Assembly (NCBI RefSeq): GCF_003751505.1
Contig: NZ_RJVB01000001.1
Coordinates: 923,898-987,897, forward strand
Length of the DNA stretch: 64,000 bases
Direction: 5' to 3'
DNA from: Erwinia sp. JUb26
Lineage (GTDB): Bacteria; Pseudomonadota; Gammaproteobacteria; Enterobacterales; Enterobacteriaceae
Positions 20,455 through 61,211 of this stretch are shown one piece after another (the stretch's first letter is position 1; every line of letters begins with the position of its first letter). Both the position numbers and the translations under genes were made by a program. A model generated the notes under the pieces. The model saw only the letters and a program-made list of their open reading frames with translations. It was not told the origin of the DNA and did not search any database.

Positions 20455-20657
20455 GAGCAGGCTGGCGGTTCCCACGTTTGGCGGGTCCTCGCGCCGCTGT
20501 GCGGTACCTTCACTTCGTTCGTCAGCCTGCCGGACCGGCTCAGACGTCGCGTCCCTGCGCCGACCGAGCCTTGCGCCCGCGTCCTGCGGGCACATCCTGG
20601 CTTCCTCTCTGCGTTCAGCGCTGTGGATTGCCAGACGGGGGAACCGCCAGCCCGCTC
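20455..20657 (+). repeat. Structured intergenic repeat, copy A
   Basis: A 203-bp element closed by 28-bp inverted ends with three mismatches (GAGCAGGCTGGCGGTTCCC at 20455, its complement ending at 20657). Shared blocks in order: GGTCCTCGCG, a hairpin CCGC-TGT-GCGG, CCTTC, TTCGTTCGTCAGCC, CGGACCGGCT, GTCCCTG, a hairpin GCCCGC-GTCCT-GCGGGC (20575-20591), ATCCTGGC and TCAGCGCTGTGGAT. It is noncoding in my reading: the long frames across it run on both strands and match nothing. It lies in the 970-bp gap between spy and astE. See the findings for the comparison of copies. Confidence 0.85.
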
Positions 20658-20683
20658 TTGTACTCCTGAGTTGCCTGTTAAAA

Positions 20684-20745
20684 GACAGCGACAAAGATAT
20701 TGCGGCCGCAGAGGCTTAGCCAGTCGCCAATGCCACAGCAGCACC
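20684..20745. repeat. Remnant or empty site related to repeat copy B
   Basis: The sequence AGCGACAAAGATAT, a short GCGGCCGCAGAGGCT and AGCCAGTCGCC...CACAGCAGCACC repeats, with changes, the left flank (AGCGACAAGTATA), right end (GCGGCCACAGAGGCT) and right flank (AGCCAGTCACC...CACAGCGACACC) of copy B, but without its 190-bp body. It reads like a duplicated site from which the element was lost, keeping one end. Confidence 0.6.
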
Positions 20746-20812
20746 GCGGCTCCCACCCTGCTTTTGTTATTTTTCGTATATGCGATTTTAAAATAGCGAC
20801 AAGTATAGAGCA

Positions 20813-21017
20813 GGCGAGGCTCTGCGGACGCTACAGGGCATCCGCAGCGCTGAGATGGAAGCATCCGGCCAGGATACGCCAACAGGACGTTGGCGTAAGG
20901 CTGCGTCGGGTCAGGGATGAGACGTCGCCGGCGGTCCGGCAGGCCGGGTGCTGCAATCGAAGGTACCGGGCTAAGCACGGCCGAGGATCGCCCGATCGCG
21001 GCCACAGAGGCTCAGCC
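20813..21017 (-). repeat. Structured intergenic repeat, copy B (inverted)
   Basis: 205 bp, opposite orientation to copy A. Ends: GGCGAGGCTCTGCGG at the left and an imperfect complement (about 21 of 27 positions, one gap) ending at 21017. It carries ATCCGCAGCGCTGAG, GCCAGGAT, the hairpin TACGCCAAC-AGGAC-GTTGGCGTA (20875-20897), TCAGGGA, CGGTCC and CGAAGGTACC. Its internal stem is nearly identical to copy C and differs from copy A, while the loop (GTCCT on the other strand) is the same in all three. Confidence 0.82.
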
Positions 21018-21097
21018 AGTCACCGATTTCACAGCGACACCAGTCAGTATGAACGAACTGAACTATTTAGAAAGGTGCTTAAACAGATCCTCGCCAC

Positions 21098-22129
21098 TCA
21101 CGCTGGCGGACTGACAACGCTGAATCCCTCAGCCTCTGGCACATCAATCACCTCACTGGCATCCTCCGCCACCAGCATCAACCCGGCCCGTAAACCTTCA
21201 GCCACATTCGGATTCGGGAACAGCACATACTCACGCGCCTGCTGCACGTAATACTGCGTATCACCATCTTCAGCCAACAGTGTCCCCTGCGCGAACGCGG
21301 TAAAATTCAGCGTCTCTCCGCCCATATGCAGCACGAAACGATCCGAATGCCGGGTGATCTGTTGAGAAACCCGATAGCGCAGCGGCGGTGCCACCACCGC
21401 AGGCAGCGTGCCGCCGCTGATCAGCGCAGTCAGCGCCTGAGCCGTGGCGGAAAACTGCGCCAGATCGTTATGGCCAAACGGCTGCGCCTTACCCAGCTCC
21501 AGCGTACAGCTGGCAGCGTGGAAATGATGGCTGCTGTAATGGGTGTAGGTTCCACCCGGCGCGCGGTGGAACACCAGCGCCTCCAGCCCGGCAGCGCCCA
21601 GCCAGTAAAGGAAATCCTCCGGCCACGGTGTTTCACGCTGCGGCATCACGCCAAAACGCGGATGATACGAACCGCGAATCGCCGTATGCATATCAATATG
21701 CCAGCGCACTTCGTCATGCTCGCTCACCTGCCAGAAATTCTCCATCGCCTGCTCCAGACGCCAGGCACGGCGTGCTTCCGGACAGTCTTCGTACTGCTGC
21801 CACCGGCCGCCAAACATTCTGTTCATATCGCCATGCACATAGCGCTTATTCTGCCGCAGAGCCGCCGGATTGCCGTAAATCACCAGCAGGCGCGCCACCA
21901 GCGGCGTCTCACCGCTCAGCAGCGAATTCAGCAGCCGATCGACAATTTCGACGGGAGCCGTTTCATTACCGTGGATGCCGGTGGAAATCACCAGTGCCAT
22001 CTGCGCCGGGTGATGCGGCGTCAGTTCCAGAATCCCTTCATCGATCCATCGCCAGCTCAGCTGCGCATTACGCCCGGCAACGGCGGAGGGCCGCTCACCG
22101 GCGAGAGTTAAGGTGAGAAAATCTTGCAT
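21098..22129 (-). CDS. astE: Succinylglutamate desuccinylase
   Basis: 343 residues from MQDFLTLTL, chosen because AAGGAG lies 7 bp upstream; an ATG six codons earlier lacks a ribosome site. It is a zinc-dependent AspA/AstE-family deacylase: [14 protein letters not shown] (about 55-68) supplies His and Glu ligands, [11 protein letters not shown] supplies another His, and the C-terminal beta domain follows. It catalyses the last ast step, releasing glutamate and succinate. It is the final gene of astCADBE, 71 bp after astB. Its 3' end comes within 81 bp of repeat copy B. Confidence 0.95.
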
Positions 22130-22200
22130 CAGTACTCCTTTATGCATCGCCGCTCAGCCCTGAGGGACCGGGGAAGCTCCCCGGCCCTGCAACGATCGCG

Positions 22201-58874: not shown

Positions 58875-59734
58875 TCGAACAGTGGCCCTCACCGGCGAAA
58901 CTTAATTTATTTCTCTACATCACCGGGCGTCGTGAAGACGGCTATCATAATCTGCAAACGCTGTTTCAGTTTCTGGACTATGGTGACACGCTGACCATTA
59001 CCGCCGACCACAGCGGCGAGCTGACGCTGTTAACGCCGGTGGCCGGCCTGGCGGATGAGCACAACCTGATCGTCCGCGCCGCCCGACTGCTGCGGGAGAA
59101 GGCGCTTGAGCGCGGCACCCTGCCCGCCAACGCCGGGGCCCGTCTGGCGGTCGATAAGCGCCTGCCAATGGGCGGCGGGCTGGGCGGCGGTTCATCTAAC
59201 GCGGCCACGGTGCTGGTTGCGCTGAATCATCAGTGGCAGACCGGTTTCAGCTTTCGAGAGCTGGCGGCATTTGGACTGAGCCTCGGTGCCGACGTGCCGG
59301 TCTTTGTGCAGGGCTTTGCCGCCTATGCAGAAGGCGTGGGTGAAAAATTAACACCCGTCTCCCCGGCGGAAAAATGGTACCTGGTAATGCACCCCGGTGT
59401 GAGCGTGGCCACCCCGGTGGTATTCAACGATCCGTTACTGACCAGAGACACGCCATATCGGCAAATCAATGAGCTGTTAGAGGCTGATTTCCGCAATGAT
59501 TGTGAGGCCGTCGTCAGAAAACGTTTCCGCGAGGTTGAACAGCTAGTTTCCTGGCTGCTAGAATATGCGCCGTCGCGCCTGACTGGAACGGGTGCTTGTG
59601 TGTTTGCTGAATTCGACACCGAGCACGCTGCACGCCAGGTGCTTGAGCTGGCCCCGAAAGAATTGCAGGGATTTGTAGCGCGAGGCGCAAACGTTTCGCC
59701 GCTTCACCGCATTCTTTCAGAGCATTCGAGCTGA
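58871..59734 (+). CDS. ispE: CDP-ME kinase IspE
   Basis: 287 residues, GHMP kinase superfamily: [22 protein letters not shown] (substrate site with Lys and Asp), the ATP loop [21 protein letters not shown], and motif 3 [12 protein letters not shown]. It catalyses the fourth step of the MEP isoprenoid pathway. It is cotranscribed with lolB and probably reads into prs. Confidence 0.96.
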
Positions 59735-59861
59735 CGTGACAGCGTCACCCTGATCCTGACGCTGCACTAACGTTCTTTAACACCCGCATGAAATCGTCAG
59801 TGGTCTTGCGCCAACCCTGACTCAATTTCATTCTCTCGACGCAAAGCCTGAGGTTCTTCTC

Positions 59862-60809
59862 GTGCCTGATATGAAGCTTTTTGCTGGTAACGCCACCCCG
59901 GAACTAGCACAACGTATTGCCAACCGCCTTTACACCAGCCTGGGCGACGCCGCCGTCGGTCGTTTCAGTGATGGTGAAGTGAGCGTACAGATTAATGAAA
60001 ATGTACGCGGTGGTGATATTTTCATCATCCAGTCCACCTGTGCCCCAACCAACGATAACCTGATGGAACTGGTTGTAATGGTTGACGCCCTGCGTCGTGC
60101 TTCCGCTGGTCGTATTACCGCGGTTATTCCGTATTTTGGCTATGCCCGTCAGGACCGCCGCGTGCGTTCTGCTCGTGTACCTATTACGGCTAAAGTTGTT
60201 GCTGATTTCCTGTCAAGCGTGGGCGTTGACCGCGTACTGACCGTTGATCTGCACGCCGAACAGATTCAGGGCTTCTTCGACGTTCCTGTTGATAACGTGT
60301 TCGGTAGCCCGATCCTGCTGGAAGATATGATGCAGATTGGCCTGGAGAACCCGATTGTGGTTTCTCCGGACATCGGCGGCGTGGTTCGTGCCCGTGCTAT
60401 TGCGAAACTGCTGAACGATACCGATATGGCGATTATCGACAAGCGTCGTCCACGCGCTAACGTGTCACAGGTGATGCATATCATCGGTGATGTTGCTGGC
60501 CGTGACTGCGTGCTGGTTGACGATATGATCGATACTGGCGGCACCCTGTGCAAAGCGGCGGAAGCGCTGAAAGAGCGTGGCGCCAAGCGCGTATTCGCTT
60601 ACGCAACTCACCCTATCTTCTCCGGCAACGCGGTTGAGAACCTGCGCCATTCGGTGATTGATGAAGTGGTGGTGTGCGATACTATTCCGCTGCCGGAAGA
60701 GATTAAAGCGCTACCAAACGTGCGCACCCTGACGCTGTCGGGCATGCTGGCAGAAGCGATTCGTCGTATCAGCAACGAAGAATCTATTTCTGCGATGTTT
60801 GAGCATTAA
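59862..60809 (+). CDS. prs: Ribose-phosphate pyrophosphokinase
   Basis: 315 residues from GTG, nearly identical to E. coli Prs. Motifs: [16 protein letters not shown] (ATP loop), [29 protein letters not shown] and the PRPP loop [13 protein letters not shown]. It makes PRPP for nucleotides, His, Trp and NAD. A strong promoter and a leader of up to 127 bp are expected between ispE and prs. Confidence 0.98.
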
Positions 60810-60813
60810 TGCA

Positions 60814-60845
60814 CTGGCCGGGTTATTCCGGCCGGTTTATTTTTA
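60814..60845 (+). terminator. Terminator after prs
   Basis: GGCCGG-GTTATT-CCGGCC followed by GGTTTATTTTT, 6 bp past the prs stop. Confidence 0.85.
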
Positions 60846-60929
60846 GCGTTCAGGTTTATATAGCCGCTGTCTTTCGGGACGGCGGCTTTTTTATTGTCTG
60901 GCCGGTTATGGCTGCGACGTCCGGGCTTT

Positions 60930-61211
60930 TGGGCCAGTCTGTGCCACTGCCGGGTGGTCCTCGCGCCGCTCTGCGATCCCTTCGGTTTCGGCATCTGGCC
61001 TGTGATAGCTGGGTAATTCGCGCCTGTGGGCCAGTCTGCGCCACTGCCGGGTGGTCCTCGCGCCGCTCTGCGGTTCCTTCGGTTTCGGCATCTGGCCGGA
61101 CGGACCGGTGAAGCTGGTGCATCCATGCACCAGCTTCACCTGACGCCAACGTCCTTGTTGGCGTCTCCTGGCCATCTGCCTCCACCTCAGCGCTGCGGAT
61201 TACCCGGCAGT
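60930..61211 (+). repeat. Structured intergenic repeat, copy F, with tandem duplication
   Basis: The core (61043-61211) has ends ACTGCCGGGT/ACCCGGCAGT, GGTCCTCGCG, hairpin CCGC-TCT-GCGG, CCTTCGGTTTCGGCATC, CGGACCG, hairpin GACGCCAAC-GTCCTT-GTTGGCGTC (61142-61165), CTCCTGGC and CTCAGCGCTGCGGATT. In place of the usual GTCCCTG stem is a 34-bp palindrome with 16-bp perfect arms (GGTGAAGCTGGTGCAT, 61107-61140). The first 71 bp of the element also occur 97 bp upstream (60930-61000) with three changes. It occupies most of the 447-bp prs-lysR gap. Confidence 0.83.

Follow-up and report, generated by a model that had tools for sequence, protein, structure and literature searches.

A high-copy, two-subtype variant of the TwoAYGGAY family with CsrA-type hairpin loops in Erwinia sp. 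JUb26

The 64,000-nucleotide stretch of Erwinia sp. JUb26 analysed here (contig NZ_RJVB01000001.1, positions 923,898 to 987,897; hereafter the window) carries six copies, A to F, of an intergenic repeat of about 200 bp, which an earlier sequence-only reading had described as a series of shared blocks separated by stems that keep pairing while their sequence changes. All six copies were found at or near the coordinates given there. The stems had been read correctly, with the qualification that the loop quoted as GTCCT is TTCCCT in copy E and GTCCTT in copy F, and the interval assigned to copy F contains, besides one full copy, a partial duplicate. Comparison with Rfam using cmscan shows that the core of each of the six copies matches RF01731, the TwoAYGGAY family, at 40.1-61.9 bits, with four of the six exceeding the gathering threshold of 43 bits. 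The sequence-only reading knew of no named family with this pattern, a claim that this match overturns; a match to a known family was also the outcome which it had itself named as counting against it. The functional strand, too, is likely to be the opposite of the one quoted, namely that modelled by Rfam.

In the source genome (G000) we detected 111 RF01731 matches at E<=0.001, of which 96 are over the cut-off; as 150 of 206 candidates were scored and regions were fetched around RF01731 matches only, these and the following totals are lower bounds. No RF01731 match was found in 14 control genomes. A family search seeded with the six copies recovered 160 matches in 46 fetched regions and the window, 124 of them near full length; two of the regions (L056 and L071) overlap, and these rows correspond to 123 distinct copies, comprising 69 of type I and 54 of type II. 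The types were set by k-mers, with 16 of the 124 rows that were left uncertain by the first rule gaining a type and one row switching. Most copies align to about positions 43-131 of the 168-position RF01731 model, and the full model (1-168) is spanned by five over-cut-off matches in the source genome, all on type II copies. We regard the repeat as an apparently unreported variant of the known, uncharacterised TwoAYGGAY family.

Table 1. Copies of the repeat and adjoining features in the window (extents of copies from nhmmer; strand signs refer to the TwoAYGGAY sense orientation, the reverse of that used in the sequence-only reading; bits are to RF01731)
Feature	Coordinates	Strand	Remarks
Copy A, type I, full-length	20466..20655	-	TwoAYGGAY core 20517-20599; 48.0 bits, over the 43-bit cut-off
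Interior of pair A/B	20656..20817	.	flanked by the 5' ends of both sense strands
Copy B, type II, full-length	20818..21007	+	core 20870-20944; 40.8 bits, below cut-off; divergent partner of A
Copy C, type II, full-length	31906..32112	-	core 31989-32057; 56.2 bits
Interior of pair C/D	32113..32213	.	one promoter-like site inside
Copy D, type I, full-length	32214..32414	+	core 32269-32337; 44.9 bits; divergent partner of C
7-bp tandem array (AGATTTG)	32432..32505	.	just past copy D on its 3' side
Copy E, type I, full-length	43428..43618	-	core 43480-43560; 40.1 bits, below cut-off; without a full type II partner in the window
Partial copy, 3' half (model 131-197)	60933..61002	-	outside copy F; nhmmer
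Copy F, type II, full-length	61026..61214	-	core 61095-61170; 61.9 bits, the best in the window

An architecture common to both types is predicted by RNAalifold from the 69 type I and 54 type II copies. Each copy is a strand of ~200 nt bounded by a hypervariable closing stem of about 20 pairs, inside which lie a short CGGGC/GCCCG stem and a conserved frame, AATCC.CAGCGCTGA, that is partly paired with GCGAGGACC. Further inward, a variable stem is followed by a CAGGA/UCCG element and two neighbouring hairpins, HP1 and HP2, with CsrA-type A(N)GGA loops, and a third hairpin, devoid of GGA, precedes GCGAGGACC. The GGA of the two core loops is near-invariant, being present in the apical loops of HP1 and HP2 in 245 of 246 cases (69/69, 69/69, 53/54 and 54/54); the corresponding figure for the loop of the third hairpin is 0 of 123. 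Many of the loops read AGGAC or ANGGAC and not strict AYGGAY, and the exact CAGGACG is seen in 66 of the 246 core loops. The hairpin stems are mostly of 8-12 pairs and GC-rich.

The two types recur in a characteristic arrangement. All 35 adjacent, full, opposite-strand pairs lying less than 700 bp apart in the source genome are divergent and unite one type I with one type II copy, and all 14 adjacent full same-strand neighbours within that distance are of one type. Exceptions are a type I copy facing a partial type I (L046) and mixed-type partials on one strand (L074); partial copies also yield four convergent neighbours (L036, L038, L047 and L050), and in L048 a distance of 787 bp, beyond the 700-bp count, separates two copies typed I, the left one of which aligns like type II. 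The divergent I/II rule extends to all 17 rows in one congener (G007) and to 17 of 18 in another (G013), with one convergent neighbour in the latter. In the other genomes pairing was judged from Rfam matches within 700 bp of each other. Within the genus, all five loci of G004 and G014 are divergent (L161, L163 and L167-L169); G002 and G035 display same-strand arrays by Rfam (L150, L151, L157 and L158), to which nhmmer adds opposite-strand copies, giving both strands in 8 of 10 loci in the order minus then plus. The spacing in such arrays (L150, L151 and L159) is mostly about 420-540 bp, and their inner end is occupied by a single copy on the opposite strand. Among 10 two-match loci outside the genus, 8 show the divergent arrangement (L253, L255, L257, L258, L260, L261, L262 and L270), four of these eight having been fetched since two matches were already known and seven coming from a single genus (G217, G327 and G421); L256 is convergent and L164 same-strand. 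A full-model match in one partner is combined with a core-only match in the other at six of these eight loci. The two subtypes, their divergent pairing and the high copy number are all new relative to the sequence-only reading.

Several further features accompany the pairs in G217, G327 and G421. CTTCTTTT occurs within 90 nt in all 16 of the sense 3' flanks examined, followed by a hairpin where visible. A 3' module consisting of GGTGTCCTTCTTTTCG, a TTTTCTTGGACAAGCAAGAAAA hairpin and CTCGCGCGCC stands after both partners (L253, L257, L261 and others) and provides the pairs with composite long inverted ends; analogous but different hairpins are seen after copies in G046 and G146. A gene enclosed by paired copies was considered as part of the unit and rejected: the 3.7-kb gap of L259 holds unrelated-looking open reading frames (no family search), and appears to part two units.

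The predicted pairing is upheld by the variation between copies. Standard pairs occupy 96.2% of the paired cells in type II (42 of 54 copies) as against 81.7% in shuffles, and 96.3% against 84.0% in type I (51 of 69 copies). The covariation score over the same copies is 0.422 for type II, compared to 0.147 when shuffled and at most 0.067 with slid partners, and 0.333 for type I, compared to 0.111 and at most 0.082; the observed value was reached by none of 500 shuffles for either type. The covariation first noticed in six copies persists, far above both kinds of control, when copies from across the genome are added.

The strand on which the stems evolve was approached through 55 orthologue comparisons, which share G000 and are therefore comparisons and not independent events, with the possibility that changes on the G000 lineage count twice. 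On the sense strand a Watson-Crick pair becomes G-U through a C-to-T change and A-C through a G-to-A change; mutation by itself should treat the two alike, so that an asymmetry between them indicates the folded strand. Single changes in the core comprise 75 between Watson-Crick and G-U as against 13 between Watson-Crick and A-C (p=9e-12), whereas the closing stem has 29 and 26 respectively (p=0.79), the two regions differing at p=4e-5; changes to other mismatches number 66 in the core and 61 in the closing stem. Double changes of any kind exceed the expectation under independence in both regions, with 49 observed against 7.2 in the core and 57 against 12.9 in the closing stem. Doubles that replace one Watson-Crick pair by another are 28 of transition and 10 of transversion type among 38 in the core, as opposed to 20 and 21 among 41 in the closing stem (Fisher p=0.037). 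Clustering of these doubles differs little (12 of 38 in the core, 11 of 41 in the closing stem), and some concerted multi-base changes within one stem were seen. As G-U is tolerated and A-C is rare, the core evolves as one folded strand, for which RNA is the simplest candidate. The closing stem has the appearance of a palindrome in DNA or of a product of arm-to-arm template switching, and given its lack of strand bias some of the covariation may stem from mutation or act at the DNA level. The proposal that selection acts on the fold is supported for the core, the closing stem behaving differently. Of the substrates put forward with it, namely a structured RNA, a single-stranded DNA or a cruciform, the structured RNA has the best support, in view of the GGA kept in both core loops and of the agreement in strand with the Rfam model; single-stranded DNA would also fit.

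The genomic context was derived from longest open reading frames as approximations of gene calls. Of 61 element gaps, 25 have convergent and 7 have divergent flanking genes, the corresponding figures for 161 other gaps being 39 and 35; the orientations in the 61 gaps do not place the copies at a constant position upstream of genes, as would be the case for a cis-regulatory leader. Scoring against a sigma-70 consensus alone, there is no general promoter excess over shuffled sequence in the 90 bp before the sense 5' ends, the mean best score being 4.51 vs 5.06 in shuffles for type I and 5.38 vs 5.21 for type II; promoters belonging to the copies in general are unsupported by these scores. A promoter-like site at 32173-32201 (+), scoring 9/12 where 0.1 such sites were expected, points at copy D, and neither pair A/B nor pair C/D has a terminator-like site. 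The missing promoter excess, taken together with the gap orientation of the flanking genes, favours read-through transcription. Elsewhere in the window, a phenylalanine operon leader (RF01859) was detected by cmscan at 5053-5177 (-) with 62.2 bits.

The phyletic pattern of the repeat is patchy. At most 38 candidates were scored per genome in the genus and order and 7 in the class-wide survey, so that absences carry little weight. Within the genus, matches occur in 13 of 36 genomes (the source included), 7 of which reach at least 27, with 23 genomes having none among the scored candidates; matches are also present in 5 of 24 genomes representing the other families of the order by one genome each, and in 15 of 369 genomes class-wide (source included) at E<=1e-5. 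The 63 exact-pattern stretches include Pantoea coffeiphila, P. endophytica, P. rodasii, P. rwandensis, P. agglomerans and other Pantoea, in addition to Erwinia sp. ErVv1 and a record labelled Enterobacter cancerogenus; single pattern matches in Mesorhizobium and Paenarthrobacter were discarded, as they are about what chance would give (an estimate of about one) and have no Rfam match over the cut-off. Four plasmid records, all from Pantoea, match with 67-69% coverage, and no match to the repeat was found in the phages or, by blastn, in the E. coli genomes searched. The Y1 transposase (PF01797, RAYT) has no match in the source genome at E<=0.001, leaving a Y1/RAYT mobiliser unsupported there; a single weak match appears in G013 (24.0 bits) and in G014 (29.6 bits), the cut-off being 23. 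Y1 transposase matches number 64 in another congener, G026, and are absent from 25 of the 37 genus genomes searched.

The history of the copies can be followed in G007 and G013, in each of which one cluster was doubled by overlapping regions, so that 110 rows represent 105 distinct full copies. For 103 of these 105, in the fetched regions, a full copy in the source genome lies within 1.5 kb of the matching flank, the other two being unmapped, and the flanks at the shared loci are mostly 85-95% identical. This suggests that the spread is older than the three species, and with nearly all of these loci of G007 and G013 occupied in the source genome recent movement is not seen. No copy is present in the stretches of G006, G019 and G031 that match the window, implying either a spread younger than that split or a loss of copies there. 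Recent transposition was explored through empty sites in G013, G007, G006, G019 and G031, and no target duplication was readable; the first two share the loci, and the remaining three are too diverged for the ends of the element to be defined. Of the copies in the window, D is internally deleted in G007 and present in G013. Copy E is internally deleted in G007, its full type II partner is represented once in G007 and three times in G013, and its locus has multiplied in place in G013 to two and three copies. Copy F has opposite-strand partners in G013; G007 has remnants in its place, which suggests loss and not an empty site. Intergenic tandem arrays with units of 5-15 bp are concentrated within 250 bp of copies in the fetched regions, with 18 in 31.0 kb as against 5 in 68.4 kb elsewhere.

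Locus-specific arrays of 6-9 bp units adjoin copies in several of the regions L031-L076, and CCCAAA- or TTTGGT-like arrays lie between the divergent copies of L161 (G004) and L167 (G014). Tandem arrays of half-copies were observed at L110:6537-7258 and L130:6026-6445, with 5' halves (model 2-72, period of about 90 bp) before a full copy and 3' halves (about 100-189) after one; their breakpoints fall close to HP1 or HP2, as would be expected of replication breaking at the hairpins. A CRISPR-DR4 direct repeat (RF01317) was found at L068:6775-6802 (-) with 50.1 bits, about 2 kb from a copy group.

The loops of the core suggest a connection to the global regulator CsrA. TwoAYGGAY and CsrB are members of one Rfam clan, CL00106, and binding of CsrA by TwoAYGGAY was proposed in 2014 on the basis of matches to CsrA sites (PMC4333381). 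The repeats of CsrB read CAGGA(U/A/C)G with GGA in hairpin loops, and systematic evolution of ligands by exponential enrichment (SELEX) gave the consensus RUACARGGAUGU (PMC7652899). The copies conform to this CsrA-type pattern of GGA in hairpin loops with CAGGA(U/A/C)G- or ACARGGAUGU-like sequence, and ACAGGGAUGU is present in some of them. In the source genome CsrA and CsrB are each matched once over the cut-off (CsrB at 224 bits), and CsrA is present in all 37 genus genomes searched and in all 18 element-bearing genomes outside the genus. Taking the sequence evidence together, we put the probability at about 0.5 that the repeat represents dispersed RNA modules built on the TwoAYGGAY fold, bearing CsrA-type sites and mostly transcribed by read-through. 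Under such a scenario, copies would have spread as divergent type I and type II pairs in the ancestral lineage of a few species resembling Pantoea, and the pairs would subsequently have been inherited, duplicated in place and eroded. The copies would most likely be transcribed by read-through from the neighbouring genes, and as the pair is divergent, a transcript from either side would end in one sense copy. This copy could offer two GGA hairpins to CsrA, and thereby act by titration or by tethering CsrA to the 3' end of an mRNA. We regard as doubtful the bolder form of this scenario, in which a selfish or domesticated repeat, as more than 100 modules of two subtypes that are mostly arranged in divergent pairs, has distributed CsrA hairpins throughout the genome to the 3' regions of genes, independently of orientation, and has rewired or buffered the Csr regulon in a lineage-wide manner; if true, the RNA target of a global regulator would have become an interspersed repeat.

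Several observations weigh against the interpretation as read-through RNA modules with CsrA sites. Most copies fit only the core of the Rfam model, and the G-U bias would equally follow from folding as single-stranded DNA. The co-occurrence with CsrA is weak, since 18 of 18 is not significant by our reckoning against a class background of 313 of 369, and no extra CsrA is found in element-rich genomes, the sole genome with two matches (G001) being without the element. Most CsrA ligands from SELEX have four or fewer contiguous pairs (PMC7652899), and with stems of 8-12 GC-rich pairs the affinity of the copies for CsrA could be low. Further, the promoter-like site before copy D raises the possibility that some copies have their own start.

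An alternative to which we give limited credence is that the pair is a DNA-level element, namely a non-autonomous mobile or architectural repeat (REPIN/BIME-like or MITE-like) with structured ends that are targets for cutting or binding in the form of single-stranded DNA or a cruciform, its likeness to RNA being incidental. High copy number combined with patchy distribution is in keeping with this, as are the intergenic location with a preference for convergent gaps, which has been reported for REPs (PMC3733652), the opposite-orientation pairs, the long inverted closing arms and the unbiased closing stem. Such an element sits poorly with the absence of a Y1 transposase match in G000, G002, G004, G007 and G035, with the occupation in the source genome of nearly all loci of G007 and G013, where no target duplication or clean empty site is definable, and with the near-invariant GGA loops, which are unneeded for cutting at the foot of a stem. 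The compensatory changes might, on the other hand, have arisen through template switching between the palindrome arms during replication and not through selection on RNA, a process for which there is published precedent (PMC8794818). In the closing stem the balance of transition- and transversion-type doubles without G-U bias, and some of the concerted changes in single stems, would be explained in this way; we nonetheless hold it improbable for the repeat, given that arm copying alone would not yield the 28:10 and 75:13 ratios of the core, that doubles are clustered alike in both regions, and that the GGA loops are conserved.

Two further alternatives concern the relationship to known RNAs. 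Convergence, whereby a separate family fits the TwoAYGGAY model merely through two side-by-side GGA hairpins, could account for the core-only matches of most copies and for an outer frame that differs from the Rfam model; it becomes quite improbable in light of the five type II copies that match the model from end to end over the cut-off and of the combination of core and divergent pairing shared by G004, G014 and genomes outside the genus. That the copies are independent CsrB-like small RNA genes or cis-regulatory leaders would accord with the Rfam type label 'Cis-reg', the clan shared with CsrB and the site before copy D. This we consider highly improbable, as promoter scores are not above shuffled for type I and hardly so for type II, terminator-like sites are wanting at A/B and C/D, and the flanking genes, 25 convergent to 7 divergent in 61 gaps, are unlike those of leaders.

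The reading as dispersed RNA modules with CsrA-type sites would, if true, connect an interspersed repeat of bacteria with a global post-transcriptional regulator, which would be unusual. If the unit is a divergent pair of RNAs with CsrA-type loops, present in more than 100 copies in some genomes, its function is testable by standard CsrA assays. The repeat also lends itself to telling selection at the RNA level apart from template-switch mutation in a single molecule, since the core and the closing stem show opposite signatures. The family to which it belongs was considered probably RNA and probably not cis-regulatory by Weinberg et al. in 2010, with sources in the human gut, Gammaproteobacteria and Clostridiales (PMC2864571), and its structure was updated in Rfam 15 (PMC11701678); in the literature passages covered, it has been listed since 2010 without an established function. 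Among the titles and abstracts that literature searches brought up, none describes its pairing, subtypes, high-copy dispersal or a CsrA repeat.

Among known systems, ERIC (IRU) is an enterobacterial intergenic repeat of comparable size; the present repeat has no blastn match in the E. coli genomes searched. TwoAYGGAY itself has in common with the repeat two adjacent A(N)GGA-type hairpins within a short closing stem, to which the repeat adds, relative to the published passages covered, the divergent two-subtype pairs, the conserved frame, the third hairpin and more than 100 copies. REP, BIME and REPIN elements with RAYT are similarly intergenic, high-copy and palindromic, often in opposite-orientation pairs, and patchy between species (PMC3733652). 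They differ in being 20-40 bp as opposed to about 200 bp, in their association with a Y1 transposase, of which the source genome has no match, and in that the conserved GGA of the repeat lies in loops and not in a tag at one end. CsrB, CsrC and RsmXYZ resemble the repeat in displaying GGA in hairpin loops, CsrB being in the same Rfam clan, and differ from it in that the repeat is dispersed and without general promoter or terminator signals. Further, CsrB concentrates about 18 sites in one RNA (PMC7652899), as against the two core sites of each repeat copy.

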